Of a stretch of DNA of 64,000 nucleotides, positions 1,791 to 55,570 are shown piece after piece. The stretch covers positions 248,001 through 312,000 of the forward strand of contig NZ_JACVMX010000001.1 in assembly GCF_014530035.1 (NCBI RefSeq). The letters run 5' to 3'. The stretch is from Leucobacter sp. cx-328. GTDB taxonomy: Bacteria > Actinomycetota > Actinomycetes > Actinomycetales > Microbacteriaceae. The position numbers were made by a program, and so were the translations under genes. The first letter of the stretch is position 1; every line of letters begins with the position of its first letter. The notes under the pieces are model-generated. The model had not been told where the DNA came from. It did no database searches and saw only the letters and a list, made by a program, of their open reading frames with translations.

Positions 1791-4700
1791 GTGCGAGCCA
1801 CCATGCGCGCACACTGGAAGATGGGGTGTTTGGTGAAGCTGAGGCAGATCCTTACGGGTGTCCTTGCGAGCGTGTTGGTCGCAGCGTTGGCGTTTACGGA
1901 CGTTGCAACTTCCGCGGGCGCAGCCGCTGCGGCGGCACCCTCCCCATCGATCACCCTGAACGGCACCGTCACCGAGGGTGACCCCGGTGCGCTCACCTCG
2001 AAGTCGATCATCTTGGCGACCGGCAACGAGGTGAAGGTGAACTATCGCCTCGTGCCGAACTATTCGGCCGGCCAGGCATCCGGTGTGCGGGTGACGCTGT
2101 TCATGCCGTCGCTTGAGCACGTCGACGGCGAGTACCAGGTGGTCGCGCGTGACGCAGCCCCGACGCCGCTCGGTGTGCAGGGACGCGTGAGCTCCGGCGG
2201 CGAGTGGAACGTCATCTCTGACACCACGGTCAAAGGCGGCCCGCTCGTTCTCGAGTACGACGGTGACCTGCGTGGCGGCGCGAACCCTGCGTTCGATATC
2301 TTCCTGACGACCTACAACGACGGCACGAACGGTGTCTACGGTGGCATCCCCGAGGGCACCCCATTCGAGATCAACGGCTTCGTCTCCTATGACATGTTCG
2401 ACCGCGCCGAAGGCAGCGAGTGGGAGACCCCCGGCCAGCTCGACGACGAGTCGCGCGTTGCGATCATCTCGTCCGACCTCAAGTGGGAAACGAAGATCGA
2501 GCCGTACGCATACGGCAACGGTGACACCTCGGTGCCGATGTGGGATCGCTACCAGTACTTCGATTACGTCTACACGGTAGATAACGTCTCCACGAACCCG
2601 GGATCGAACATCGAGGGGTACACGGGAACCTTCGACATCGACACGACCGACAACATCAACGGCATCATTCCGTTCGATATCAACCGCTTCAGCTACACCG
2701 CAGACGGTAAGACCGAGCCGAACACCGACCCCGAAGCGACCGAGGGCGAGTTTATTGGCGTGCCTGGCAAGGGCGGCGTCTTGATCTATGACATCACCGA
2801 GTGGGACGGCGAAAGCGAACTCACGGAGGAGATCCCGTACTCCTACTCGGGCGCCGGCATGATCTCGATCAATCGCGAGCACGGTGCAGCGAAGCAGGGG
2901 CTGAAGCCCGGCGAGAAGCACAAGTTCATGGTCTCGCTACCGATGAGCCGCCAGGGCTTCCCGAACCTCCCCACGAACTTCAAGCTCACCGCGATCACCA
3001 ACGTGCTCTTCGCCAAGACCGCGAACTGGACCAAGACGCACACGGCTGTGCGCGAGGTTGATGTGCCTCGCTATGGCCTGACCTTCACGCACGCGCCCGA
3101 AAAGGCCACCGTGGAAGAAAGCCAGCGCACCTACACCGAGATCTCCGCGATCAAAAACACCTCGAACGCTCCGATCTTCAACACCGACCTCTCCTACACG
3201 ATCGACCCGGGCTTCGTTGCCGATAGCGTCACGCTTGAGTTCCCGACTGAAAAGTCCGATCCCGACCTCAGCAAGTCCACCCTGACCTACACCTACACCG
3301 ATAAGAAGGGCGCAGAGCAGACCGGCACGCTCACCGGCACCCTGGGGGAGTCCGAGCAGGGCGCGGATCATTCCAAGCTCACCTTCGATGTCTCGAAGCT
3401 GTATGCGCTCGACTGGAATCGCGAGCTGTCGTTCTCGTTCGTGAGCGGTCGCCTGAACCCTGGCAAGACGCTGCCGTTGACGATCCGCGTCTATGGCACC
3501 GCGCCGACCGCTGGCACCATTACAGATCCCGCGGCAGTGACATACAACGAGCGCTACGCGAGCAACGACGACTACGCAGAGGACACCGTCTACACCGACG
3601 TGCCGCACACGGTGCAGCGTGATGCCGTCTTTACGGTGGTCAAGCCCAAGCCGCAGGACGTGCTCAAGCCCGTCGTCGATGTCATCGGCGTGTACGGCAA
3701 CGCCCGCACGAAGAGCACGACTCAGGTGCCGTACGAGGCGCCGTTCCAGGCGGAGTACCAGCTGTCGACGGGTGGCGTTCCCGCGGCCTCGTTCGAGTAC
3801 ACGATGGATCTCAGCGCGCCAACGGTGGCCCCTGGCGTCGCGAAGCCGACGAAGATTGCGCTGACCGATGCGCTGTTGGGATCCGCCACTGATCTCGAAC
3901 TCGCCTTCATCGATGCGGCCGGTAAGAAAGTCACCACCGCAGACACGACGGTGACGCTCGGCGACCTCGCACTGACCGACGTCGCGAAGATCGTGATTTC
4001 GGGCAAGATGCTCACCCTTGCGAGCGCAGAAACGATTGCCGTCGTCGACTATTCCTCTGCGCTGGCGATGGGCGGATCGCAGACGCTCCAAGCATCCTTC
4101 GCCGGTAGGCAGGTGCCGCCCGATACCGCAACCCGCACGGCATCGAAGACCAATGTGGTGACGGTTCCCGAGGCGAAGACTACGGTGAAGATCGAGGGCC
4201 TGAACCAGGTCACGAAGTCGACCGGTGCTGGCAACTCGTACGACCAGTGGGTCGATCGCCAGTGGTACTGCTCGACGAGTGGGTGCGGTTCAAAGACCGA
4301 CTACACCCTTGATCAGGGGTACAAGTCGCTCGGCGGCTTTGCGGCGTCGATCACGCGCCCCACGACCGCAGCGACGAACAACGACCAGACGACGGTCGTG
4401 AGCACGAAGTTGCCCGCGGAGCAGTTCGACATGTACTACATGAAGATTCGCAGCGATCTGCAGCCCTACCTGCGGTCGGTCGATATCTTCCGAACGATTG
4501 ATGGCAAGGAAGTCCTCTGGAAGACCGTGCCCGCCGCCGACTGGACAGCAAACACCACCGAAGGTAAGTTCTGGCGGATCGCCACAGCAGACCCCCGGGC
4601 AACAGACCTGAGCGAGACCTTTGCAACGGTCGACGCAGAGGGGCACACGTATTACAAGGCGCCGTTCGCTGCCGACGTCGTTCCCGACCAGCCCGTGAGC

Positions 4701-43131: not shown

Positions 43132-43764
43132 TCACACGGGGTTGCAGGAACGTGAAGACTCATCTTCAGCGAGAAGCTTGAAGTAAGCATCTTCGTCGGC
43201 ACGGCGCGAAGCCACATCGGCTTTGACGAACTCTACGAAGTCGGAGTCGCGGTCAACGATGGGGGCCTCCGCCGCCGCAGGGTACGGGGTGTCGCCCGGC
43301 CAAGTGGTTTGCCGTGTGGGGCGGTCACGGTCGATGCGGGTGCCGGAGGCCTGCACCCATTCGCGCAGGCGCATCCGAGCTTCAGTGAAGTCGCGGTGCC
43401 AGGTGATCGGGCCGCTGGCGTGCTGTTCAGGATCGTAGGCACCGAGCCAGTGACAATGCAGCGCCGAGAGTTCCCATACCAACTCGGGGTGTCGGTGCCA
43501 CAGCGGGGGCAGCACTGCCGGTGTGAGACCGTAGGAGAGTTTCAGCCAGGAGACCCAGCTGTTGAGTTCGAGCCACTCGATCTCGGCTTGTTCGCTGGTG
43601 AGTAGGTTCCAGTTGATCGGTCGCGGAGGTGCGCTCACTCTGCCGCCCGCATTCACCGGGGTACCGAGACGTGGCAACTCTCGTGATGTCGATGCCGATG
43701 AATCTGGTTCGACTGCCTCCGGGGCGGGAGGAAGTTCACTCGGATCCATGACGTCCTCGCTCAT
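43132..43764 (-). CDS. DUF4913-like ICE accessory protein
   Basis: 210 residues. Disordered Pro/Ser-rich N-terminus, then NLLTSEQAEIEWLELNSWVSWLKLSYGLTPAVLPPLWHRHPELVWELSALHCHWLGAYDPEQHASGPITWHRDF, which follows the DUF4913 pattern (W..L..WV.WL...Y.L....+P.CW..HP..+EELSAL...W..AY). DUF4913 proteins are common in actinobacterial plasmids and ICEs; their function is unknown. The start overlaps the stop of the SSB-like gene by 4 nt. It is the last gene of the minus-strand transfer operon. Confidence 0.75.
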   Translation of the reverse strand: MSEDVMDPSELPPAPEAVEPDSSASTSRELPRLGTPVNAGGRVSAPPRPINWNLLTSEQAEIEWLELNSWVSWLKLSYGLTPAVLPPLWHRHPELVWELSALHCHWLGAYDPEQHASGPITWHRDFTEARMRLREWVQASGTRIDRDRPTRQTTWPGDTPYPAAAEAPIVDRDSDFVEFVKADVASRRADEDAYFKLLAEDESSRSCNPV

Positions 43765-44279
43765 CGACTCACGCCGACTGATGCCGCGTTCATGTGCGTG
43801 GTGCGGCGCGGCTCAGGATGCGCGCTAACTGCCGTCGAGTGCTCCTGCGCGGTGCTGAGTGCCTGCCTCATCGCGGTCTGCTCTACCGCACGCTGTTCGG
43901 TGCGGGGGCTGCGGTCGACCGTGTAACGGGTGCGTCGGGTGTTGTGGCCGATCTGCTTGATCTCGAAGCGTTCCTTGCCCGTCTGCTCGCTGACTCGCAC
44001 CACCCCCTGCGCGATGAACGAGTCGCCCTTGTGGTACTGAGCGAGGATTGTCTCGGCAGCACCCCAGTACGCGGTGAGCGCGTGAAAGGTTGGCTCTTCC
44101 TTGATCGTGCTGCCCGTCTCGGGATCGTGAACGAATCGCTCGGTGCCGTAGCGGGCATAGATTTTGGGTGCGCCGTCGCGGGTCTTGCTGGGCTTCGGGT
44201 CGGTTGCAAAGAACCCGACGATCGCATCGAGGGTTTCGATCGGCTCAGATGCGGGGGCCGGTTCGCTGCTGTCGTTCAT
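43761..44279 (-). CDS. Single-stranded-DNA-binding-like OB-fold protein
   Basis: 172 residues from ATG 44279, chosen for its AAGGAG 7 nt upstream. AIVGFFATDPKPSKTRDGAPKIYARYGTERFV, TFHALTAYWGAAETILAQYHKGDSFIAQGVVRVSEQTGKERFEIKQIGHNTRRTRYTVDR reads as an OB-fold SSB: a hydrophobic strand pair, a K-G-D turn and the R-r-T-r-Y end. Tail of ~45 residues is polar. Probably protects transferred single strands. Follows the helicase gene by 75 nt and overlaps the DUF4913-like gene. Confidence 0.72.
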   Translation of the reverse strand: MNDSSEPAPASEPIETLDAIVGFFATDPKPSKTRDGAPKIYARYGTERFVHDPETGSTIKEEPTFHALTAYWGAAETILAQYHKGDSFIAQGVVRVSEQTGKERFEIKQIGHNTRRTRYTVDRSPRTEQRAVEQTAMRQALSTAQEHSTAVSAHPEPRRTTHMNAASVGVSR

Positions 44280-44353
44280 TGGGGTTCTCCTTGCCTGTAG
44301 CACCGCGCCTCCGCGCGGCAACAAGGAGGTGAGGTCGCCACCCCGAGAAGCGA

Positions 44354-47300
44354 TTACCGCCCGATCTGCAACCCAGACGGTCTCGGCGGCACCGGGGCGA
44401 ACGCGCTGGGAGCAGCAGCCGGAGCATGGGGTCGCTGCTGCTCGGGATCGGAGCGCACCCCGCCCAGTGGCTGATACGCGCGCACCGCCTCAACCGTGAG
44501 TTCCGGGCGAGACGGCGAAGCCGAGACCCGCTCAGGCTCTGGGGAGGGTTCCTCCGGGGTTTGCCGCTGCATAACGGCGATCTTCTTCTCGACCTTCTCG
44601 AGGTCGGCCTCAGCCGCAGAGAGCGCGAGGGCATGCTTGAACGGTTGCCCGAGACGCTGCTCGGCATCCTGCCGGGTCTGTTCGGCTCGCGCTAGATCCT
44701 GTTCGGCTTCGGCCAACAGCTTCGGGAGTGCAGCCATACGATTCTCGATCCGCTGGATCAGACCGACACCGCCTTGCAGGAACGAGTCTCGGGTGACAGT
44801 AAACGATCCCCTCGGTACTCCGTGCAAGCTGGTACGCACGAGCACGTCTCCGGCCATTTCGGGCACGAGCTCGCAGCTGATGTCGAAGCCGCCGATCCGC
44901 CCGATCACGCCGTAGTCCTGTGCTTGGTGACGCCCTGCGTATTGCATGTTCGCTTGCCTTGCCCATCCCATGAGCGCGTGGCCGGCATCGCTACGCGAAT
45001 CGTAGAAGCGGCCTTGGATCGTGATGCGGAACTTCTCGGCCGTGGTGTCGATCATGTTCGGGATCGCTGCCCGTATCCCGTCGATGTCATCGGCAGCACG
45101 GGCAGCGTCTTGAACTGCCTGGGAACGGGTGTATTCGAGCATCCGCTCGTTGTTCTGGTGCGCCCGGTCGAGTCGTCGCAGCCGGGTAACTTCACTCTGA
45201 AGATTGGCCTGATCGAGCAACAGTGGGTTGCCGGACGAGATGGCTTTCGCCTCGGCAGCGGTGAGCGAGGCTGAGTCGATTTCTTCGATCTCGCGTACGT
45301 CCAGCCTGCCGCGCATCACCTGTGAAATGAACTTCGCTTTACGCTCAACGCCCTGCCACATATACGAGTCGAAAGAACGCTCGGTGACGAGCCTGACGAT
45401 TGCGACTTCCTCATTCTGGTTGCCTTGCCGCAGAATCCGGCCCTCGCGTTGCGCAATATCAGAGGGTCGCCAAGGGCAGTCGAGGTGATAGAGCGCGATG
45501 GCTCGTGCTTGAACGTTCGTGCCGACGCCCATGCGTTCGGTGGAACCGAGAAGTACAGAGATGTGTCCGGCGCGGGCAGCCGCGAACAGGCGACCTTTCT
45601 CGAGGTCGTTGCGGGCCTCGTGAATGAACCGGATACCCTCGGCAGGCATCCCACGGTAGATGAGTTGGGTGCGCAGTTCCTCGTACACGTTCCACCGCTC
45701 CTTGTTCGGTGTCGAGAGGTCGGAGAACACCAACTGCATCGCACCTTTGATCGGCGATGGCTCGCCGGTCACCGTATCGAGGTACTCGGTATCTCGGGTG
45801 TTCTCCCAGGTGCGGAAGATCATGTCGGCCGCGACGTCGACCTTGGTAGGGCCGGAGGGATCGTCAGAGATGGTCAGCCGCATATCGAGTGCGGCTTTCC
45901 TGCCGTCGCTGGTGACCGAGAGCATGTTGTCCTCGCGCGGGTCAACACTGCCGGAGGCAATCATCTCGGCACGTTCACCGAGGGTCTTCACGAACGCCAC
46001 CAGTTCGGACGATGGGGCTACGCCTCTGGTGAGCGGGGCACGGTTGCCATCGTCGCGAATGCGAATGTCGGGAACGGGGAGCTTCAGATCTTCGGCGGTT
46101 TTCACGTCGGCGAACGTCGACCACATGCGGAGCATTTCGGGTACGTTCTGGAACTTCGCGAATCGCGTCTTCATCCTGAATGACGCACCCGTGGGAGACA
46201 TCTCCATCTGCGTGACTGTCTCGCCAAAGGTCGCCGCCCATGCGTCGAAGCTCTCACCGATTCCGGCAGCATGGAACAGGTCTGGGCGCAGGTAGCGCTG
46301 CATCACATACGCTTCGGTGATGGAGTTCGAGATTGGCGTCGCCGTCGCAGCGGTCACGATCCTTGTCTTCCCCGTCGAACGGAGATACTCGAGCTTCATG
46401 TGAAGATCGGAAGCGCGCTCTGACCCGGTGATCGAGGCGTCTCGAATGTTCGACGGTGTGGCAAGGTTCTTGAAAAGGTGCGATTCGTCCACGATGACGT
46501 AGTCGATACCGGTGTCCTCGAAGTTGATGCCCGGATCGCGGGGTTTGTCTGCGAGCTTCTTGAGGCGTTCCTCGGCCATTGTGAGGGCGCGCTGCATCCG
46601 CTTCACACTGATGCGATCTTCCTTGTCGGCGGCTTCGAGCGCGGTGCGGAGAGCGTCGAGTTGCCGGTCACGATACTCATGTTCGGTATCGACCCGCAGT
46701 GGCACGCGCTCGAACGCGGAGTGCGTCATGATGATCGCATCCCACTCGTTCGCCGCTGCCCGCGCGACGAACGCTCGCCGCCGATCCCGCGTCACATCCT
46801 GGCTCGACGCTGTGAGAATCTTCGCGTTCGGATACAACTGCAACCACTCACGCGAGAACTGCTCCAACATATGATTCGGCACCGAGACAACGGGCTTGTT
46901 GATGAGGCCCATACGTCGCATCTCCATCGCCCCGCACACCATCTCAGCGGTCTTCCCTGCACCGACCTCATGGAAGAGACCGACGGACGGTTCTGCGACC
47001 ATCCGGGCTACCGCTGCGCGCTGGTGCGGGCGCAGCGTGATCGTGTTCGCAGCAAGCCCTGGAAATGTGAGATAGTCGGCAGCGCCCGTGTAGTCGCGGA
47101 GCGCGATGCACGCGAACCTGCGGTTGTAGCCGTCTACCAGGGTGCGGGCGCGCTCGGGGTCTTCCCACACCCATTCAGCGAACCGCTCCTGTAGCTGGTT
47201 CGCCTTTTCCTGTGCGGCTGCTGTCTCGGTGGGGTTGAGTACCTGCCGTTCTTTGCCCTCTATGTCCTTTTCGGTGTCGTAGACGAGGATGGGTCGCTGC

Positions 47301-50113
47301 TCAGCGAGCGCTTCAAGCAGAACGGGCGCGGAGCGACGCTCGGTGCCCCATTCGGAGGTTGATCGGATACCGTGCCTGCCGCCCTTCACCTGCCACATGC
47401 CTGGCACCGGGTTCTCGACCACGACATCACGGGCCTGCAGAAGCTCGGTGAGGAACTGCTGGTGAATCTGCGCGCTGATCCACACCGCTCCGATCCTCGG
47501 CGTGATGTCTTCAGCGCCGAGCGGTTCGGGCTTCACTTGTTCCAGTGCGGTGATGTTCACCGCGAACTCGGGATCACGCTCTGCACGCTGACGGGCAGCG
47601 TCGAGCTTTTCGTAGATGTCACCCGAAAGGTACGCCGGGGCGTGGATCAGTTCATCGGTCACCGGATCGGTGAACACCAGGCCGTCAAGTGCGCCGCGAG
47701 CCTCCGGCTCGCTCATGCCGAGCAGATCGGCGATCAGGATCAGGTCGATCCCGCCGGTACGGTCGAGACTCACCGCTACCGCGTCCGCAGGGGTCTCCAC
47801 TCCTTGAATCTCAGGCCTGGGCACCACGACCCGCTCGCTCAGCAATGTCGCCGGAGTCGCTTCTTGAGTGGTTTCCTCGAAGTTCTCGAGCGCGAGCACG
47901 AGCGGCCCGAACGGGTCGCTGCGCAGCAGTCTGATCGGGGTCGGCACCGTGCGCGCGTACTTCGGGTTGCCGTCCTCATCGAATCGCCCGGTACTGCGCA
48001 GCTTGTAGCGATTCAGCGCCCCATAGACGCCGACATACTTCTGGTAGGAGCGGCGTAGCTGTTCGCGTGCCTGATCGAGTTCAGGGGTGTCATCGAGGGA
48101 GTGCGCCTCCATCGTGAGCAGCGTCGACGCTTGATCCCGCAAACTGAGTAGCGCTCGTAGCTCTCGCGCCGCTGACTTCGCGACCTTGAATGGCACGACT
48201 GCGCCTACGGCGACCACGCCGAAGCTGCCATTGTCGTGCGGCACGATTGACCCATCCCATCGGCCAGGCTCCGACGGCACGAATGCCGCGCGCCTTGCCT
48301 CGACCTCCGGTGCGGCCTCGGTCAGTGTCAAATCCTCGCGACGTGCTTGGAATGTCAGCTGGTCGAGTGCGTTTTGCAGGTGCTCGGCGGCGTGCTCGTG
48401 GTCGCCTTTCACGACGAGGGTGAGTGCCGAATAGAGGCCGTGCTGCATCCCGATCTCGCCGAGCACCATCTCCGGGTGTTCGTCAAAGTAGCGGTTCAGG
48501 TTCAACGGTTTCCCGTCGAAGTCGAGCTGCGTCACCGTCTCCCAAGTGAGATCGCGCGGTGGTTCACCGTCTGCGCGGCGACGGAACAGTAAGAGGTCGG
48601 TGACGATCTCGGTGCCCGCGATCCTGCGGTGCGCTCCGCTCGGCATCCTGACCGCGCCGATGAGGTCAGCGACTGCGTTCATCTCCCGGCGTGGGCCAGG
48701 GTTCCTGGCGTCGAGCGTGTAAAAGGAAGTGAGTACCGCCATCAGCCCGCCAGGCCGCAAGAGCCTCAGCGACTTGATGATGAAGTGGTTGTGGATCGCA
48801 TACTCAGAGGCGTTGTACACCCGGTCATGCAACTGGATCTTCCCGTAGGGCACGTTGCCCACCGCAACGTCGAATGTGCCCTCGGGGAATCGGGAGTCTG
48901 CGAACGACTCGGTGCGAATATTTGCGTCGGGGTAGAGTGCGCGACTGATCGCCGCCGTCATCGGGTCAAGCTCCACGCCAGTCGCATGGGCACCTTCGGG
49001 TGCGAGACCGATGAACGTACCGGATCCGCTACCCGGTTCGAGCACGCGACCGCCCGAGAAACCGAGGTCTCCTAGCGCCCGCCATATCTCACGCACGACA
49101 TCGGGGTCGGTGTAGTGCGCGTTCATCGTCGTGCGGGCCGCAGCCCGCCACTCGTCTTCACTGAGCAGTTCGCGCAGCTCGGCGCGCTCTTTCTCCCACT
49201 CCGGTTTTGACGTATCGAACACGTCTGCCACCGCACCCCAGCTCGACCAGCGTGCGAGCATCGTCTGCTCAGCCTCCGTGGCCGGCCGTTGCTCCGCTTC
49301 AAGCTGCCGCAATAGCCGGATCGCGGCGATGTTTGCGTGGTAGCGGCTCTTCGCACCGCTCGGCGGGCGCGCATCTGCTGCGCCCGGCACAAACCGGGGT
49401 GCAGCCAGACGGGGCGCTGCTGGCTCGAGGGTTTCGGCTACTGGACTTCGCGGAGGAAGCGAATATTCGCTGCTTCTTCCATGATCCCCTGATACTCCTC
49501 CAGGTAGCGGTAGGGGTTCTCCGATCCGATCAGGCCCTCGAAGAACCACATCGGGATCGCCCATTCCTGAGCTATCTCTTCCAGTTCCTCGGTCGAGTAG
49601 ATCGGGTACGGGCTGTCCTGAATCCGATCGACGATCATCATCAGCCCCTCGTCCATCGGCCGGGTGTCCTCCCACTCCTGTCGAGCCTCGGTCAGAGTCA
49701 GCGAGGGATCGCTCATCCATGCGAGTTGATGAGCCATGGCGATCTCCTCCGCTATCTTCCGGGCCGTGGTCAGCAGTGCGACCTGGGTGAGATAATCCTC
49801 CCTCGCTTCGGGCATTTCCGCCAGCATCACGCGCGCCATGTCCTCGCTCAGCGAACTCACTTCCCCCAGCACTTCGGTTCCAATCTCCGAAAAGCGTGTC
49901 TCCAGATCCTCGCTCGAAGCCGCCAAGGTCTTCATGTGGTTCGGGGCGTACCTCTCCCAATGTGCCCTGATCCGGTGCGCGTAGTGCGTCATTGAGCTCA
50001 CCTGCTTCTCGTGTGCCAGCTTCAGCAATCTGTGCGTCAGCGGTTGTTTCGTCCAGACCCCAGAGGTCGAGCTCAAGCTGATCTGGTGGCGGCTGCCGTC
50101 TACGCCTCGCCAT
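44354..50113 (-). CDS. Giant N6-methyltransferase/helicase fusion (DarB-like antirestriction type)
   Basis: 1,919 residues from ATG 50113 (GAGAGGCGG upstream; GTG 50122 would add three). An early MTase fold: motif I VLEPGSGSGTF (~360) and motif IV NVPYG (~419), like NPPY of N6-adenine MTases. An SF2 helicase follows: LFHEVGAGKTAEMV (~1053), VIVDESHLFKN (~1210), TAATATPISNS, and late motif QREGRILRQGNQNEE (~1557). The C-terminus has long charged helices. This arrangement resembles phage P1 DarB and other ICE-borne MTase-helicases that protect incoming DNA from type I restriction; that role is inferred. Residues ~40-225 are Gly/Asp/Arg-rich, low complexity and overlap another gene in another frame, so the N-terminal region needs care. 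Confidence 0.85.
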   Translation of the reverse strand: MARRRRQPPPDQLELDLWGLDETTADAQIAEAGTREAGELNDALRAPDQGTLGEVRPEPHEDLGGFERGSGDTLFGDWNRSAGGSEFAERGHGARDAGGNARSEGGLSHPGRTADHGPEDSGGDRHGSSTRMDERSLADSDRGSTGVGGHPADGRGADDDRRSDSGQPVPDLLDRGTGRDSSGMGDPDVVLRGPDRIGEPLPLPGGVSGDHGRSSEYSLPPRSPVAETLEPAAPRLAAPRFVPGAADARPPSGAKSRYHANIAAIRLLRQLEAEQRPATEAEQTMLARWSSWGAVADVFDTSKPEWEKERAELRELLSEDEWRAAARTTMNAHYTDPDVVREIWRALGDLGFSGGRVLEPGSGSGTFIGLAPEGAHATGVELDPMTAAISRALYPDANIRTESFADSRFPEGTFDVAVGNVPYGKIQLHDRVYNASEYAIHNHFIIKSLRLLRPGGLMAVLTSFYTLDARNPGPRREMNAVADLIGAVRMPSGAHRRIAGTEIVTDLLLFRRRADGEPPRDLTWETVTQLDFDGKPLNLNRYFDEHPEMVLGEIGMQHGLYSALTLVVKGDHEHAAEHLQNALDQLTFQARREDLTLTEAAPEVEARRAAFVPSEPGRWDGSIVPHDNGSFGVVAVGAVVPFKVAKSAARELRALLSLRDQASTLLTMEAHSLDDTPELDQAREQLRRSYQKYVGVYGALNRYKLRSTGRFDEDGNPKYARTVPTPIRLLRSDPFGPLVLALENFEETTQEATPATLLSERVVVPRPEIQGVETPADAVAVSLDRTGGIDLILIADLLGMSEPEARGALDGLVFTDPVTDELIHAPAYLSGDIYEKLDAARQRAERDPEFAVNITALEQVKPEPLGAEDITPRIGAVWISAQIHQQFLTELLQARDVVVENPVPGMWQVKGGRHGIRSTSEWGTERRSAPVLLEALAEQRPILVYDTEKDIEGKERQVLNPTETAAAQEKANQLQERFAEWVWEDPERARTLVDGYNRRFACIALRDYTGAADYLTFPGLAANTITLRPHQRAAVARMVAEPSVGLFHEVGAGKTAEMVCGAMEMRRMGLINKPVVSVPNHMLEQFSREWLQLYPNAKILTASSQDVTRDRRRAFVARAAANEWDAIIMTHSAFERVPLRVDTEHEYRDRQLDALRTALEAADKEDRISVKRMQRALTMAEERLKKLADKPRDPGINFEDTGIDYVIVDESHLFKNLATPSNIRDASITGSERASDLHMKLEYLRSTGKTRIVTAATATPISNSITEAYVMQRYLRPDLFHAAGIGESFDAWAATFGETVTQMEMSPTGASFRMKTRFAKFQNVPEMLRMWSTFADVKTAEDLKLPVPDIRIRDDGNRAPLTRGVAPSSELVAFVKTLGERAEMIASGSVDPREDNMLSVTSDGRKAALDMRLTISDDPSGPTKVDVAADMIFRTWENTRDTEYLDTVTGEPSPIKGAMQLVFSDLSTPNKERWNVYEELRTQLIYRGMPAEGIRFIHEARNDLEKGRLFAAARAGHISVLLGSTERMGVGTNVQARAIALYHLDCPWRPSDIAQREGRILRQGNQNEEVAIVRLVTERSFDSYMWQGVERKAKFISQVMRGRLDVREIEEIDSASLTAAEAKAISSGNPLLLDQANLQSEVTRLRRLDRAHQNNERMLEYTRSQAVQDAARAADDIDGIRAAIPNMIDTTAEKFRITIQGRFYDSRSDAGHALMGWARQANMQYAGRHQAQDYGVIGRIGGFDISCELVPEMAGDVLVRTSLHGVPRGSFTVTRDSFLQGGVGLIQRIENRMAALPKLLAEAEQDLARAEQTRQDAEQRLGQPFKHALALSAAEADLEKVEKKIAVMQRQTPEEPSPEPERVSASPSRPELTVEAVRAYQPLGGVRSDPEQQRPHAPAAAPSAFAPVPPRPSGLQIGR
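49438..49992 (-). CDS. Embedded out-of-frame gene, TnpV-like helical protein
   Basis: 184 residues (MTHYAHRIRAHWERYAPNHM ... EEAANIRFLREVQ) lying wholly inside the helicase reading frame, same strand, different phase. ATG 49992 has GCAGGTGAG 5-13 nt upstream. Codon third positions are strongly G/C in this frame and not in the helicase frame over the same stretch. The composition (Trp, Tyr, Met, amphipathic helices) is protein-like. DYLTQVALLTTARKIAEEIAM resembles the small TnpV-like proteins of ICEs that precede such helicases (recollection, not a search). Either it overprints the helicase N-terminal linker or the helicase truly starts further on. Function unknown. Confidence 0.75.
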   Translation of the reverse strand: MTHYAHRIRAHWERYAPNHMKTLAASSEDLETRFSEIGTEVLGEVSSLSEDMARVMLAEMPEAREDYLTQVALLTTARKIAEEIAMAHQLAWMSDPSLTLTEARQEWEDTRPMDEGLMMIVDRIQDSPYPIYSTEELEEIAQEWAIPMWFFEGLIGSENPYRYLEEYQGIMEEAANIRFLREVQ

Positions 50114-51884
50114 CGGAAGCACCGCCTCTCAACGTGGATTCGAGCCGCGCCCGATCCGAGCGAAGCTGCGCCGCATCGTTACGCGCTGTCCAAGGCCGCA
50201 GATCGGTAATGATCGGGGGTGCGGCACGCAGCAGCGTCACGCCCGTACCGAACGGGATCATGCGCAGCTTCTCTGGCGGCATGATCGGCACCCTGCGGAT
50301 CGACCGCTGCGAGGAACGCTCACCGAACGCGCCCATCGTGATCGAATCGGTGTGCTCATCGCGTTCACCCAACAGGGCGGAAAGGTCTTGCAGGTCGCGC
50401 GTGTTCGACGCGCCACCGAGAATCACTTTCACGATCGACGCATCCCAGATCGCGTTCGCAGAGTTGTCACCCCATTTCTCTCGCGCCTGCGCGAGCGATT
50501 GCAGAATCGGCACCGTCGTAATGCCGGTGCCACCGCCCTCAGCCATCAGCGTCGGAAGCGACGGTAGCGGCGCGATGTTCGCTATCTCATCGAGCACCAG
50601 CGCCAGCGGAGGGTCGAGCCGGGCACCAGCAGAGACCGCCGCCTGACGGCGGGCGGTCTCCACGATGTCTTCCACAAGCGCCGCCACCAGGGAGGCTGAC
50701 GCGCCAGCCCCGGCTCCGGTCGCAAGCAGATACAGGGTACCCCGATCAGCGAGGAACTGCGCCGGATTGAACTCTTCCCCAGGGCTGGGTGAGACGGTAT
50801 CGAGCACGCGCGGGTCGGCGAGCGCGGCAAGACTGAGCGCGACACCCTGCCAGATGCTGTCGCGTGTTCTCGGGTCAGCGTCGATCACGCCGCCGAGCGC
50901 GTTAGCCCACCCAGACGCCGCATGAGGCGTGCTTTCAAGGATGGTGACGGCCTCAGCGGCAGCGGCAGGATCGAGCGTCCACCTGAACAACTCTGATGTG
51001 GGCCGCTCGTCGAGTGCGGCAGCGTGCAGCAGCGACTGCAACGCCACCCGAGTTTTCGCCTCCCAGAAGCCGCCATTCTCGGTATCGCCAGAAGCCAGCC
51101 CGGTCGCGGAAGCGAGGCCGGTGGCGCGGATCATCGCGGTGAGAGGGTCGGTGCAACCCCGCACCGGCGACCATCTCATTCCCGCAGGAATACCATCGGC
51201 GAGGCGTTGCGGATCGAACACCGCCACCGGCCGTTCGCCTCTCCTGCGCGCCTCGAGCGTCGCCGTCACATTATCCGGTCGCGTCGACGTCGTGACCACC
51301 GCGCCCGGAGCGTCAAGGATCATGTTGATCGCGAGATGCAAGCCCTTTCCAGAGCGGGGCGGGCCGAGCACGAGCATCGAGTCTTCGACCGACGCCCACA
51401 CAGGTTTGCCGTGAGCGGAACCGAGACGGTAGCCAACATCAGAGGGTCGAGGAATGGCGAGCGTGGGGCGCAGGTTTGCGGCCCGGCGCATGAGCGCTTT
51501 CTCGGATGCTTGCGCCTCGATGTCTGCGCGGGTCGCGACGCCAACGATCCTGCGAGGATCGGCCTCTCGTCTTTTCTGGCCGCGACGCACAAGCGTCCAC
51601 ACCCACAATGCGATGCCGGAGATGAGACCCAGAAAGACGGCGGAGATGAACCAGTACACGACCGGGTTCAACCCTGGCGCGCCGAGCGCCGTACCAGGGT
51701 CGCCGGGAGTGAAGAGCACTCCGGCACCCGCCGCAATCCCAGCCTCCGGTGCAGGGTGGCCGGTCGCCCACGCGGTGACAGTGCCTGCGGCACGCAGCAC
51801 GAGTGCAAGCGCGAACAGGGCGGCGAGGCCGACCATCGCGAAGTTGGTCAGCTCGTGCCCGTACCCGCCGACTTGCCGGTTCAT
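50100..51884 (-). CDS. Type IV coupling protein (TraD/TraG/VirD4-like)
   Basis: 594 residues. Two N-terminal membrane helices (FAMVGLAALFALALVLRAAG; VVYWFISAVFLGLISGIALWVWTL). Walker A LVLGPPRSGKGLHLAIN, VVTTSTRPDN, Walker B LALVLDEIANIAPL, then GGTGITTVPILQSLAQAREKWG and ILGGASNTRDLQDLSALLG, all classic for TraG/VirD4 ATPases. It would bring the relaxosome to the secretion channel at the inner membrane. Its stop overlaps the helicase start region and its start overlaps the upstream gene by 4 nt. Confidence 0.93.
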   Translation of the reverse strand: MNRQVGGYGHELTNFAMVGLAALFALALVLRAAGTVTAWATGHPAPEAGIAAGAGVLFTPGDPGTALGAPGLNPVVYWFISAVFLGLISGIALWVWTLVRRGQKRREADPRRIVGVATRADIEAQASEKALMRRAANLRPTLAIPRPSDVGYRLGSAHGKPVWASVEDSMLVLGPPRSGKGLHLAINMILDAPGAVVTTSTRPDNVTATLEARRRGERPVAVFDPQRLADGIPAGMRWSPVRGCTDPLTAMIRATGLASATGLASGDTENGGFWEAKTRVALQSLLHAAALDERPTSELFRWTLDPAAAAEAVTILESTPHAASGWANALGGVIDADPRTRDSIWQGVALSLAALADPRVLDTVSPSPGEEFNPAQFLADRGTLYLLATGAGAGASASLVAALVEDIVETARRQAAVSAGARLDPPLALVLDEIANIAPLPSLPTLMAEGGGTGITTVPILQSLAQAREKWGDNSANAIWDASIVKVILGGASNTRDLQDLSALLGERDEHTDSITMGAFGERSSQRSIRRVPIMPPEKLRMIPFGTGVTLLRAAPPIITDLRPWTARNDAAQLRSDRARLESTLRGGASDGEA

Positions 51885-52585: not shown

Positions 52586-55570
52586 TTAGTTCATGAGTTC
52601 GTCGAGTTCGTTCTCCTTTCCATCAGTACCAGTGGGGTCTTCGGCTGCGGCTTCGCGTTCGCGCTGCTGAGCGAGGCGACGCCCGAACAACATCACGCCC
52701 GCTGCGGCGAGGATCGCGACGCCTGCGCCGATGCCGAGCGCCCACATGCCGCCGTTGTCGCCTCCGGTCACCGCCAGCTCAGGCGGAGCGGTGGGCTCGG
52801 TCACGACCTTGGTGGTCTCGTTCGGGGCACCGCAATGGCCGCGATGCAGCACGTCACCGTCCGGGCCGTACAGGGTCTCCACCCAGTAGTAGGTGCCGAC
52901 GCGATCAAACACCACATCGTTCGAGCGGTAGTCGCCCGGCTCGTCGACCTCGATGGCCTCGGAGGTGAAGACCAGCTCGTCTGCGGTGCAGAGCGCCTCG
53001 CTGCCGTCCTGCCGGTAGGCCTCGAACTTCAGCGTGGAACCCTCGGGCACCTTACCTGTGACGGTCGCGACATCGTGAGCGGGATCACCGAGCAGCACCT
53101 CGGGCACCGCGTTCGTGACCACGCTCACTTCCTCAGGCTGCCCAGTGACCACGGTGGTCTCACCCGGAGCACCGCAACGCCCCTCGACGATCACTTCACC
53201 GTCTTTGTCGTACAGGGTCTCGACCCAGTAGACATGGCCGGGCTGGTCGACGCTCGTGGTGCCGGAGCGGTAGATGCCCGCCTGGGTGACAGGAATCTGC
53301 TCGCTCTCGAAGAACGGTGCGTCGCACTGCGGCTCAGCCTCGGGATCGACCGGGCCATGCGCCCGGAACACGAGGTATGCACCTTCGGGGATGTCGGTGC
53401 CCTGCACGAGCGCGAGATCCTCGAACGGTTCACCGACGCGCGCCTCGGGTGTCGCCTGCGTAATCACCGAGACCGGCTGCCGATCATCGGGCACGAAGAA
53501 CCGCTCCCGAATATCGCCCGGCGAACTCGTGTGCGGCTGCACCCGGTCATCGCCCGCGAAGTGCGACACGATGACGTAGTAGCCGGGCTTCACCGGCTTG
53601 ATCGCATCCTCATCCGTGTACCCGAGATGGTAGGTGCCGTTTCGTGCGGGCGTCGTGATCGACGTGAGCACCGGAGCATCCTCAAGATCGAGGTCATCGG
53701 TCAGCTCGTCCTCGGTCTTGAACGGCCCGTACACGGTGTGCACGACCTCGTCATGGTCGGCACCCCAGTAGCCGTCGCCCTCGAACTCGCTGTGATTCTC
53801 GGGGAACCCGCTTACCTCGATCCGGTCGAACGCGCGACCGCCTTTGAGATGCACGTTGTACTCCTTGACCTCGGAGACGATCTTGATCGGCCAGCGCACC
53901 GAGTGCGTCTCGATGCTGATGCCGTAGTCATCGGCCCAATCGGCGGCGAGGTAGGGGCGCACCCATTCGGGCTGGTCAGCGCGCTTCATCTCCCACACCC
54001 AGGTCACAAACCCCGCGTTCGGCAGCACGATCTCAGGGCTGGTGTAGGTGCTGGGGCCGGTCGCGGTGATTGTGACCGTCTCGATTACTCGCGCGTCAGC
54101 GGGCACTTGGCCGGCCTGTGCAGGGGGCAGCGTGCCGGGCACCTGATAGGCGGTGCCCTTGAAGATCACGGGGATGTGCTCGCCGTTGTGCTTGAGCCAG
54201 ACCCCGTTGCTCGAGGACACGGTGATCGTGTCGGTCACCGTGTCGCCGGGGTTCACGAGCCGCTGGTCAGCGCGCGAGACCGCCTCGGGCTGGAACGGCA
54301 CCACCGACGTCTCCGGCACGAGGCCGAAACGATCGGTGAAGCTCTCGGTGATGTACTTCGCGTTCTCGCCCTGCGCTGCTTTGTCGATCGACCAGACCCA
54401 GGTGTAAAAACCTGACTCGGGAGCGGTGATCGTGCCCGGCGACGTGTAGTTGCCGGGGCCGGTCAGGGTGAGCTTCTCCGTGCCTGCGACAGGCGCACCG
54501 CTCGGCGGCGCGTTCGCCTCGGCGGGCTGCGCGTCGAACGGGCCGTAGAGCGTACCGACGGCCTCGACCGGGATCGGGGAACCGTTGATGCGAATCCACG
54601 AGTGCTTCGTCACCGTCACATTCACGCCGTCAACGAACTGGTCGCCCGCCTGTACGAACTTCGATGCGACCTGCGTGGTCAGCTCGGGCTGGAAATCGAG
54701 CGGGATCACGGGCGACTGCGCGGCGGCTTTCACCGGCTCGAAGCTCGCTGCTGCGAGAATCCGCTGCTCGCCGGGAGTGTAGAACATATCCACCCCGGCA
54801 CCCAGACCCGCAGCCTGTGACGAGAACGACGCACTCACACGGTACTCCGGCGCACCCTCAGCGGGGGTGCCGGTGATCGCGTGCGTGCCCGCACCGAGTG
54901 TCGCAGTAGTCGCACCGTTCGCAAACGTCGCATTGGTGAGCGTTACCGCGCCCGTGAGTGATCCTGGCGTGGTGCTGATCGTGAGGCGACCCTGGTACTG
55001 GTCGCTCATCTCGATACTCATCGACGCGGATGGCTTCGCCACCTCGTTGTCGGCGGCGGCCTGTCGCATTGCTGCGAGGTTTCCGAGCACCGTCGACCGC
55101 GCACCAGCCGGTACACGCTCGATGAAGTGTGCCTCGCCGCCGCGCGCGGCATAGGTGTCGTGGTCGGCGACATCCCACACGAACAGTTGTACCGCAGCCG
55201 TGATCGCCGGGTCTGACGATTCGCCCCAGGTGGCCATCACATAGTTCAGCTGCGCGAGTTGCCCCTCGGAGAGATTGTCGAGGGTGGTCTTCAGTTCGGG
55301 ATGCTCGGTGTTCCCGTAGGGCGGCAGCGCGTCGATGTCCATGCAGTATGCCTGACGGCCGTGTGAGGAGAACGAGCCGAGCCACAACTGCTCATTCCCA
55401 TATCCGACGCCCAGGGTCGCGGCCTGCGCAGCTGGGGCAGGCATCATGACGAGGCTCGATACGAGCATCAGCAGCGCCAGCAGCAAGGTGGCGAACTGTA
55501 CTCGGAATCTTCGCTCCTGGGGATCGACCCTGGGCCGATCATCCGGTGGGCGGGTGGACGTGTAAGACAT
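52586..55570 (-). CDS. LPXTG-like (LAVTG) surface protein with thioester-type N-domain
   Basis: 994 residues. Signal peptide FATLLLALLMLVSSLVMMPAPAAQA. A TQXA/thioester-like domain follows: AYCMDIDALPPYG supplies the Cys and AAVQLFVWDVADH the Gln pair that would form an internal thioester for covalent target binding. Then come repeated beta modules: two with DGVNVTVTKHSWIRING / DTITVSSSNGVWLKHNGEHI, and two with YYWVETLYGPDGDVLHRGHCGAP / HVYWVETLYDKDGEVIVEGRCGAP. It ends LAVTGG, TM helix MWALGIGAGVAILAAAGVMLFG and a charged tail unusually long (30 residues) and acidic. LAxTG suits class E sortase. Probable mating-contact adhesin. Confidence 0.88.
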   Translation of the reverse strand: MSYTSTRPPDDRPRVDPQERRFRVQFATLLLALLMLVSSLVMMPAPAAQAATLGVGYGNEQLWLGSFSSHGRQAYCMDIDALPPYGNTEHPELKTTLDNLSEGQLAQLNYVMATWGESSDPAITAAVQLFVWDVADHDTYAARGGEAHFIERVPAGARSTVLGNLAAMRQAAADNEVAKPSASMSIEMSDQYQGRLTISTTPGSLTGAVTLTNATFANGATTATLGAGTHAITGTPAEGAPEYRVSASFSSQAAGLGAGVDMFYTPGEQRILAAASFEPVKAAAQSPVIPLDFQPELTTQVASKFVQAGDQFVDGVNVTVTKHSWIRINGSPIPVEAVGTLYGPFDAQPAEANAPPSGAPVAGTEKLTLTGPGNYTSPGTITAPESGFYTWVWSIDKAAQGENAKYITESFTDRFGLVPETSVVPFQPEAVSRADQRLVNPGDTVTDTITVSSSNGVWLKHNGEHIPVIFKGTAYQVPGTLPPAQAGQVPADARVIETVTITATGPSTYTSPEIVLPNAGFVTWVWEMKRADQPEWVRPYLAADWADDYGISIETHSVRWPIKIVSEVKEYNVHLKGGRAFDRIEVSGFPENHSEFEGDGYWGADHDEVVHTVYGPFKTEDELTDDLDLEDAPVLTSITTPARNGTYHLGYTDEDAIKPVKPGYYVIVSHFAGDDRVQPHTSSPGDIRERFFVPDDRQPVSVITQATPEARVGEPFEDLALVQGTDIPEGAYLVFRAHGPVDPEAEPQCDAPFFESEQIPVTQAGIYRSGTTSVDQPGHVYWVETLYDKDGEVIVEGRCGAPGETTVVTGQPEEVSVVTNAVPEVLLGDPAHDVATVTGKVPEGSTLKFEAYRQDGSEALCTADELVFTSEAIEVDEPGDYRSNDVVFDRVGTYYWVETLYGPDGDVLHRGHCGAPNETTKVVTEPTAPPELAVTGGDNGGMWALGIGAGVAILAAAGVMLFGRRLAQQREREAAAEDPTGTDGKENELDELMN

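Follow-up and report, generated by a model that had tools for sequence, protein, structure and literature searches.

A small gene nested out of frame in the tether of a DarB-like methylase-helicase gene: probable dual coding in conjugative elements

We analysed a window of 64,000 nucleotides from Leucobacter sp. cx-328 (contig NZ_JACVMX010000001.1, positions 248,001 to 312,000; all coordinates below are those of the window), in which a predicted methylase-helicase gene of a conjugative element contains a second, smaller gene read in another frame of the same (minus) strand. The helicase gene (44354..50113) begins with an ATG at 50113, preceded by a modest Shine-Dalgarno sequence, GAGG (50125..50128), and its open frame runs to 44354, giving a protein of 1919 amino acids. 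The nested gene (49438..49992, stop codon included) begins with an ATG at 49992, ends with a stop at 49440-49438, is offset by +1 relative to the helicase frame and encodes 184 amino acids; five bases before its ATG lies its own Shine-Dalgarno sequence, AGGTGA (49998..50003), situated within the helicase frame. The nested gene is complete within helicase codons 41-225, and the overlap comprises about 555 bases. An earlier note on this DNA had given the same coordinates for both frames and the same internal Shine-Dalgarno sequence, and had described third codon positions as GC-rich in the nested frame and helicase codons as ending in A or T; all of this was confirmed, the GC content of third positions (GC3) being 0.783 in the nested frame and 0.397 in the helicase frame over the same bases, where that of first positions (GC1) is 0.777. 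The helicase itself starts with a conserved N-terminal motif, QLELDLW (residues 12-18; 50060..50080), continues with a tether of hydrophilic, poorly conserved residues, which is overprinted by the nested gene (49439..49993), and ends with a conserved body (44354..49408) made up of an LPD36-like start (assigned by position), the methylase and SNF2, in the domain order outlined in the main text of PMC5512222. The same 555 bases thus very probably encode both the helicase tether and the nested protein, with both frames under selection.

Judged by its sequence, the large protein is a DarB-like N6-methylase/SNF2 helicase of the kind described in PMC5512222. It was recognised by homology to phage proteins named 'DarB-like antirestriction' (tblastn), with 34.8% identity over 82% to that of Klebsiella phage LASTA, and the Pfam SNF2 and Eco57I-methylase models match it just under their cut-offs. 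The DarB-type methylase-helicase of phage P1 and the polyvalent proteins belong to the same enzyme family, for which the main text of PMC5512222 gives an NPP(Y/F) methylase motif and an LPD36 GXGU motif; the words 'overlap', 'clamp' and 'TnpV' do not occur in that text. By eye, NVPYG and PSGAK can be seen in the window helicase and GSGG in that of a Pseudomonas plasmid (locus L070).

The nested frame has the properties of an ordinary gene. A phmmer search returned 12 homologues with 46-95% identity, ten of them covering at least 99% of the query (P0006 covers 77% and P0014 53%), and a search with a wider alignment gave at least 163 relatives at E<=0.01 among the 7999 candidates scored. The ratio of non-synonymous to synonymous substitution (dN/dS) was 0.05-0.52 in 28 of 29 pairs, the 29th being saturated, which indicates purifying selection. 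Shine-Dalgarno sequences of at least five bases precede 59.5% of 37 nested starts, in comparison to 19.1% of 299 internal control starts, and those of at least six bases precede 32.4% and 2.3%, respectively. The AlphaFold2 model obtained with an alignment of 30 rows had a mean pLDDT of 85.1 (an alignment of 14 rows gave a poor model, with 65.1) and consisted of two all-alpha modules, residues 1-91 and 100-183, whose mutual placement is uncertain; no fold match for it was found at E<=0.001 in PDB or BFVD. One could still propose that the helicase alone is real and that the nested frame is its shadow, since, given the helicase frame, chance alone leaves the nested one open in 24% of the resamples at the window (0.45% when its own codons were permuted) and in more than half of the resamples at many GC-rich loci. 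However, a shadow would hardly show low dN/dS over the very bases where the helicase frame exceeds 1, nor so many homologues, an enrichment of Shine-Dalgarno sequences and well-modelled helices, and we regard this explanation as close to untenable.

Several relatives among the matches listed, from Jiangella, Haloactinopolyspora, Sinomonas, Nakamurella and members of the Solirubrobacteraceae, carry the source name 'TnpV protein', and the profile of TnpV (PF14198), a protein of conjugative transposons, weakly matched 20 of the 28 members of the nested-protein alignment A4 at E<=1 (best 4.3e-4; the next family matched 3 of 28). On the other hand, the window protein falls below the cut-off of the family and has an extra C-terminal helical module, and the best of seven relatives scanned singly with the TnpV model (P0179, 24.8 bits) was also below the cut-off. 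In 246 genomes of the phylum the Pfam model gave no match at E<=1e-5, the controls being equally silent, and at E<=1 it also matched 7 of 14 control genomes. The nested protein therefore appears to be distantly TnpV-like and not a TnpV member.

With the nested-protein alignment alone as query, 17 of 398 family genomes and 12 of 394 class genomes were matched, the window's own genome among both, and these gave 32 loci in all, including that of the window. The helicase body was found downstream of the nested gene in all 32; the helicase frame was open across the nested gene in 30 and unbroken from the nested start to the body in 29. At L021 and L026 the contig ends just upstream of the nested gene. 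At L029 (L029/L054, genome G546) the helicase frame is open over the nested gene and broken just after it, and L017 and L025 are one place (genome G227), where an indel in the overlap puts both frames out of register; dual coding would lead one to expect such a joint loss, though a sequencing error could also be the cause. Save for this indel, no helicase-frame stop lies over the nested gene in the 32 loci, and such stops had been named beforehand as a finding that would speak against the overlap. In a larger table, partly picked because the nested open reading frame (ORF) was visible, the helicase frame was open in 55 of 55 loci. This table leaves out L062 and L029, both of which have the nested ORF; the nested candidate of L074 was left out of the tests, L005 was dropped for having no helicase and L071 (Listeria) for having only a short match in an ArdC-like gene.

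To estimate openness by chance, the synonymous codons of the nested gene were resampled from helicase-body usage in 2000 trials, or its own codons were permuted. In the window, the helicase frame was open in 2.05% of the resamples and 1.55% of the permutations. Multiplied together, the chances of openness come to about 4e-15 (sum of logs -14.35) for the 17 groups that the nested protein alone had identified, and to about 1e-42 for 33 groups (with a floor of 1/2000 each), figures that are descriptive and not probabilities, because the groups share ancestry and the broken L017/L025 is not included. In the Campylobacter/Helicobacter plasmids L066, L093 and L082, with 36-49% GC, the frame was open in 0 of 2000 resamples each, and in the permutations at 0, 0.0055 and 0.

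These results bear on the reading in which the two genes are adjacent: the small gene is real, the helicase begins after it, and the upstream frame is open only by GC richness. Public annotation takes this form in Arthrobacter pA19BH1, Mycolicibacterium, Gordonia and Pseudomonas-type plasmids, with the small gene recorded and the helicase begun behind it, and the chance of an open frame at a single locus can indeed be high. In Campylobacter and Citrobacter, however, the annotated helicase starts upstream and the nested gene is left out, RefSeq itself starting the Campylobacter jejuni homologue upstream; none of these public records has both genes together. Start codons also argue against adjacency. 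In 17 of 37 loci, which include close kin, there is no helicase-frame ATG, GTG or TTG in the interval that opens 30 bases ahead of the nested stop and closes 45 bases inside the body, and a mis-started helicase is unlikely for this reason. The window and L003 are not among the 17 and have a start without a Shine-Dalgarno sequence, which in the window is a GTG (49388..49390), the sole start codon of the helicase frame in this interval. A start with a Shine-Dalgarno sequence of at least five bases after the small gene, also named beforehand as contrary evidence, was found in only two of the 37 loci (L050 and L055), in both already inside the conserved body. The annotated start of the Pseudomonas helicase (L070, position 3088) likewise lies about 75 bases inside the conserved body, which begins near 3013, and in L070 and its relatives it cuts off the first conserved part of the body, including GSGG. 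Together with the three Campylobacter/Helicobacter loci open in none of the resamples, the conserved N-terminal motif, the strong selection upstream of the small gene in several pairs and the hydrophilic bias in the overlap (see below), this makes the adjacent arrangement very improbable. The possibility raised in the earlier note, that the helicase is mis-started by 200 residues, was accordingly not supported by start codons, motif, selection or openness.

The patterns Qx[SDN][LM]F and Q[LMIVF]x[LF]x[LFI] describe beta-sliding-clamp-binding motifs. A strict match within 45 residues upstream of the nested start was present in 17 of 27 groups, in comparison to 0.16 expected from shuffles, in the form of QLELDL in the window, QPDLF in Mycolicibacterium and further genomes, QLDLF in L052 and QMTFDF in Pseudomonas. 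The N-terminal motif of the helicase thus resembles a sliding-clamp-binding peptide, and the helicase may bind the clamp through it. Purifying selection on the stretch before the nested start was evident in Pseudomonas (pN 0.00 and pS 0.18, the proportions of non-synonymous and synonymous differences, for L070/L085, the latter locus being that of pGRT1 in Pseudomonas putida DOT-T1E; dN/dS, or w, 0.07 for L088/L089) and between Campylobacter and Helicobacter winghamensis (w 0.04 and 0.09). At L073, the open frame of the helicase body also encodes SAP domains (E 7e-21), on the upstream side of the nested ORF. We also noticed a second clamp-like motif between the nested gene and the body in the tethers of L050, L051 and L052 (QPSLF, QLALF and QLDLF).

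A conserved N-terminus upstream of the nested frame, with no intervening stop in the helicase frame, could also mean that ribosomal frameshifting joins the clamp-like N-terminus to the nested frame, so that a motif-TnpV fusion is made in addition to the long helicase or in its place. We consider this very doubtful. The nested ATG or GTG has its own Shine-Dalgarno sequence, the distance from the helicase start to the nested start varies from 9 to 64 codons across loci, and helicases without a nested ORF of at least 80 codons also begin with the motif in the helicase frame, as in Acetobacter (L069, QLNLF) and Roseomonas (L081, QLSLF), in both within the annotated helicase.

Over the overlap, the helicase frame differs in composition from both the nested proteins and the helicase bodies. 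Order-promoting residues made up on average 11.4% of the overlapped helicase stretch, 29.7% of the nested proteins and 28.5% of the bodies, and the overlapped stretch was lower than both in 33 of 33 loci; two ordinary window genes read in the same shadow phase gave 17% and 21%. In the +1 phase, helicase codon position 2 is nested position 1 and helicase position 3 is nested position 2, because of which an ordinary nested gene would be expected to leave a hydrophilic peptide in the host frame, and the shadow frames agree with this. In 29 of 33 loci, the overlap had fewer order-promoting residues than synonymous resampling conditioned on an open frame would give, with f<=0.05 in ten and no locus in the opposite tail. 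Moreover, the nested frame had a lower pS than the helicase body in 27 of 29 pairs, with one tie and one pair in which it was higher (bootstrap P<0.05 in 14; the pairs used for pS and dN/dS share members). Host-frame selection over the overlap is therefore seen as stop avoidance, lowered nested-frame pS and hydrophilic bias, and its target appears to be disorder rather than individual residues. The suggestion of the earlier note that a disordered linker is overprinted by a folded accessory protein fits the residue composition and the nested pLDDT of 85; the likeness of the N-terminal motif to a clamp-binding peptide, the resemblance to TnpV and the spread over three phyla go beyond that note.

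Several observations weigh against dual coding or against parts of it. The model of the nested protein had a pTM of only 0.46, and the window protein scored 14.6 bits with TnpV, for which the Pfam gathering cut-off is 27. An open shadow frame is not rare in GC-rich DNA, with a chance of up to 0.70 at single loci. The helicase residues in the overlap are not conserved, all 29 pairs having an apparent dN/dS above 1, which is expected in this phase where the other frame dominates. The strict clamp motif is missing in 10 of 27 groups, of which four have QLSLESL, five have partial forms (NLF, SLF, FDLW or FVLW) and Citrobacter has nothing. N-terminal dN/dS, calculated from 25-59 codons per pair, was weak or noisy in window/L003 (0.54), L018/L019 (0.94), L032/L033 (1.28) and L008/L009 (0.76). 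Dual coding, as suggested by the earlier note, is still well supported by selection on both frames, by the upstream helicase start and by the lack of a usable downstream start in many relatives, and from these we infer that both frames are probably translated.

The nesting is not confined to the relatives of Leucobacter. A fixed rule was applied, namely a nested +1 ORF of at least 80 codons. Searching 296 class genomes with the helicase body gave 22 places in 21 genomes, of which 18 passed the rule, with no +2 ORF in any of the 22; at L054 the nested ORF is present and was missed by the rule owing to the frame break. The helicase matched 2182 plasmid records; 16 loci were taken for variety from 60 listed, and 11 of these passed. 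Nine plasmid loci were counted, from Arthrobacter (two), Mycolicibacterium, Gordonia, Campylobacter jejuni, Helicobacter suis, Pseudomonas (two) and Citrobacter. Nine further plasmid loci, taken by DNA similarity, were also nested: three Pseudomonas plasmids and one each from P. aeruginosa, Paraburkholderia, Xanthomonas, H. winghamensis, C. coli and C. fetus, six of the nine coming from the Pseudomonas-type search. Five of six loci from viral and phage collections passed, among them L073, which passes in +2 as well, and L076. In L076, L079 and L084 the +1 ORF satisfies the rule, but it was not counted, as by eye it looks shadow-like and resembles neither nested family. By the same rule there was no nested +1 ORF of at least 80 codons in Streptococcus L065, Agrobacterium L067, Acetobacter L069, Roseomonas L081, Aeromonas L083, the gut contig L077, L059, L060 or L061, the last being a fragment-like match with a stop. 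The overlap phase was +1 throughout. The comparison with +2 (0/22, 0/16 and 1/6) is an imperfect control, since shadow frames are not alike in the two phases; according to PMC2542354, long +1 overlaps are generally commoner than +2 ones for compositional reasons.

At E<=1e-3, 228 homologues of the Pseudomonas-type nested protein were found, none with a Pfam domain among the 120 matches listed, and a scan of viral contigs with its profile (A2) gave no match. Profile comparison with hhalign joined A4 with A5 (Mycolicibacterium, Gordonia and five other genomes; probability 95.9%, E 6e-9) and A2 with A3 (Campylobacter/Helicobacter; 80%, E 1.4e-5). A single nested family across phyla was not supported, with 0.1% for A4 against A2 and 0.7% for A4 against A3. 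The same nesting is thus present in Actinomycetota, Pseudomonadota and Campylobacterota, with two nested families that are not detectably related: one within Actinomycetota (A4 and A5), which is the distantly TnpV-like one, and one of the Pseudomonas and Campylobacter types (A2 and A3). One may suppose, though only tentatively, that this is one very old overprinted pair in the conjugative elements of three phyla, in which the tether of a clamp-riding helicase would have been kept open and disordered while the nested accessory protein diverged beyond recognition. If the origin was not single, the same tether would have been overprinted at least twice, always in the +1 phase.

Some loci differ in the form of the host frame. 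In L034/L057 and L036/L058 the helicase lies inside giant open frames of 4797 and 6550 codons, in the style of polyvalent proteins, and the nested +1 ORF is kept. In the Helicobacter suis plasmid (L082:1608-2381), a +1 ORF of 258 codons is nested in an annotated 'hypothetical protein' frame running into the helicase body; weak ArdC-like similarity, below the cut-off, lies upstream, and the methylase-helicase is annotated in pieces.

The neighbours of the pair in the window are also on the minus strand. A gene for a type IV secretion system coupling protein of TraG/VirD4 type (50100..51884; TraG-D_C 5e-29) overlaps the helicase start with its last 14 bases, and an SSB-like gene (43761..44324; PF00436 21.3 bits, under the cut-off of 26) directly follows the helicase. 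A secreted-looking protein of 994 amino acids (52586-55570) adjoins the conjugation genes and had no Pfam match at 1e-3; we take its QAYCMD/QLFVWD stretches to be thioester-domain-like and its C-terminal LAVTGG to be a sortase-type anchor.

Comparable arrangements are known. In the Rz/Rz1 pair of phage lambda, a mobile element likewise has a functional gene lying out of frame within another; its proteins are unrelated to those described here, and in the present pair the overlapped part of the host frame encodes a hydrophilic tether. The pop, ano, asa and laoB genes of E. coli O157:H7 are similar in being described as long, non-trivial overlaps missed by annotation, but they are antisense, whereas the present overlap is on the same strand. 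In Thermus, the L34 gene rpmH is fully nested in rnpA and also has its own start, but according to PMC9841429 the two AUGs lie one nucleotide apart and use a common Shine-Dalgarno sequence, whereas here the nested start lies 40 codons in, has its own site and occurs in mobile elements of three phyla. The same paper remarks that only a small number of such overlapping reading frames have been recognised in bacteria. Among the literature matches listed, in which most subscription papers lay outside the scope, no title or abstract opening describes the present pair, and the word 'pTet' did not occur in the searched part of the C. jejuni ribosome profiling (Ribo-seq) paper PMC11955535.

Ribosomes starting at 50113 would make the full methylase-helicase of 1919 amino acids, and those starting at the internal Shine-Dalgarno sequence and ATG at 49992 would make the all-helical, TnpV-like protein of 184 amino acids from the +1 frame; as the helicase message carries the nested start too, the two proteins would be produced jointly. 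Between the clamp-like motif and the enzymatic body, the link would be a tether of about 200 residues, disordered to judge by its composition, which may tolerate a second gene because only openness, length and hydrophilicity are needed of it. In this way, clamps loaded on transferred or replicating DNA of the element could carry the enzyme along, and its clamp-bound N-terminus may deliver the methylase-helicase to DNA that is replicating or is turned duplex after transfer. DarB-like proteins are thought to protect incoming DNA, according to the main text of PMC5512222. The linkage of the two genes suggests a possible, still rather speculative, role of the small protein as an accessory or regulator of the helicase.

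For this family of elements, the pair offers an overlap that can be put to the test in elements amenable to laboratory work, whose homologues are distributed widely enough for selection to be measured frame by frame, and a disordered tether as the room in which a second gene is accommodated. It also accounts for public helicase starts by which the N-terminal motif is lost and, on plasmids of the Pseudomonas type, some of the body as well. Finally, it suggests a link, proposed here, between the DarB-like helicases of conjugative elements and the sliding clamp of the host.

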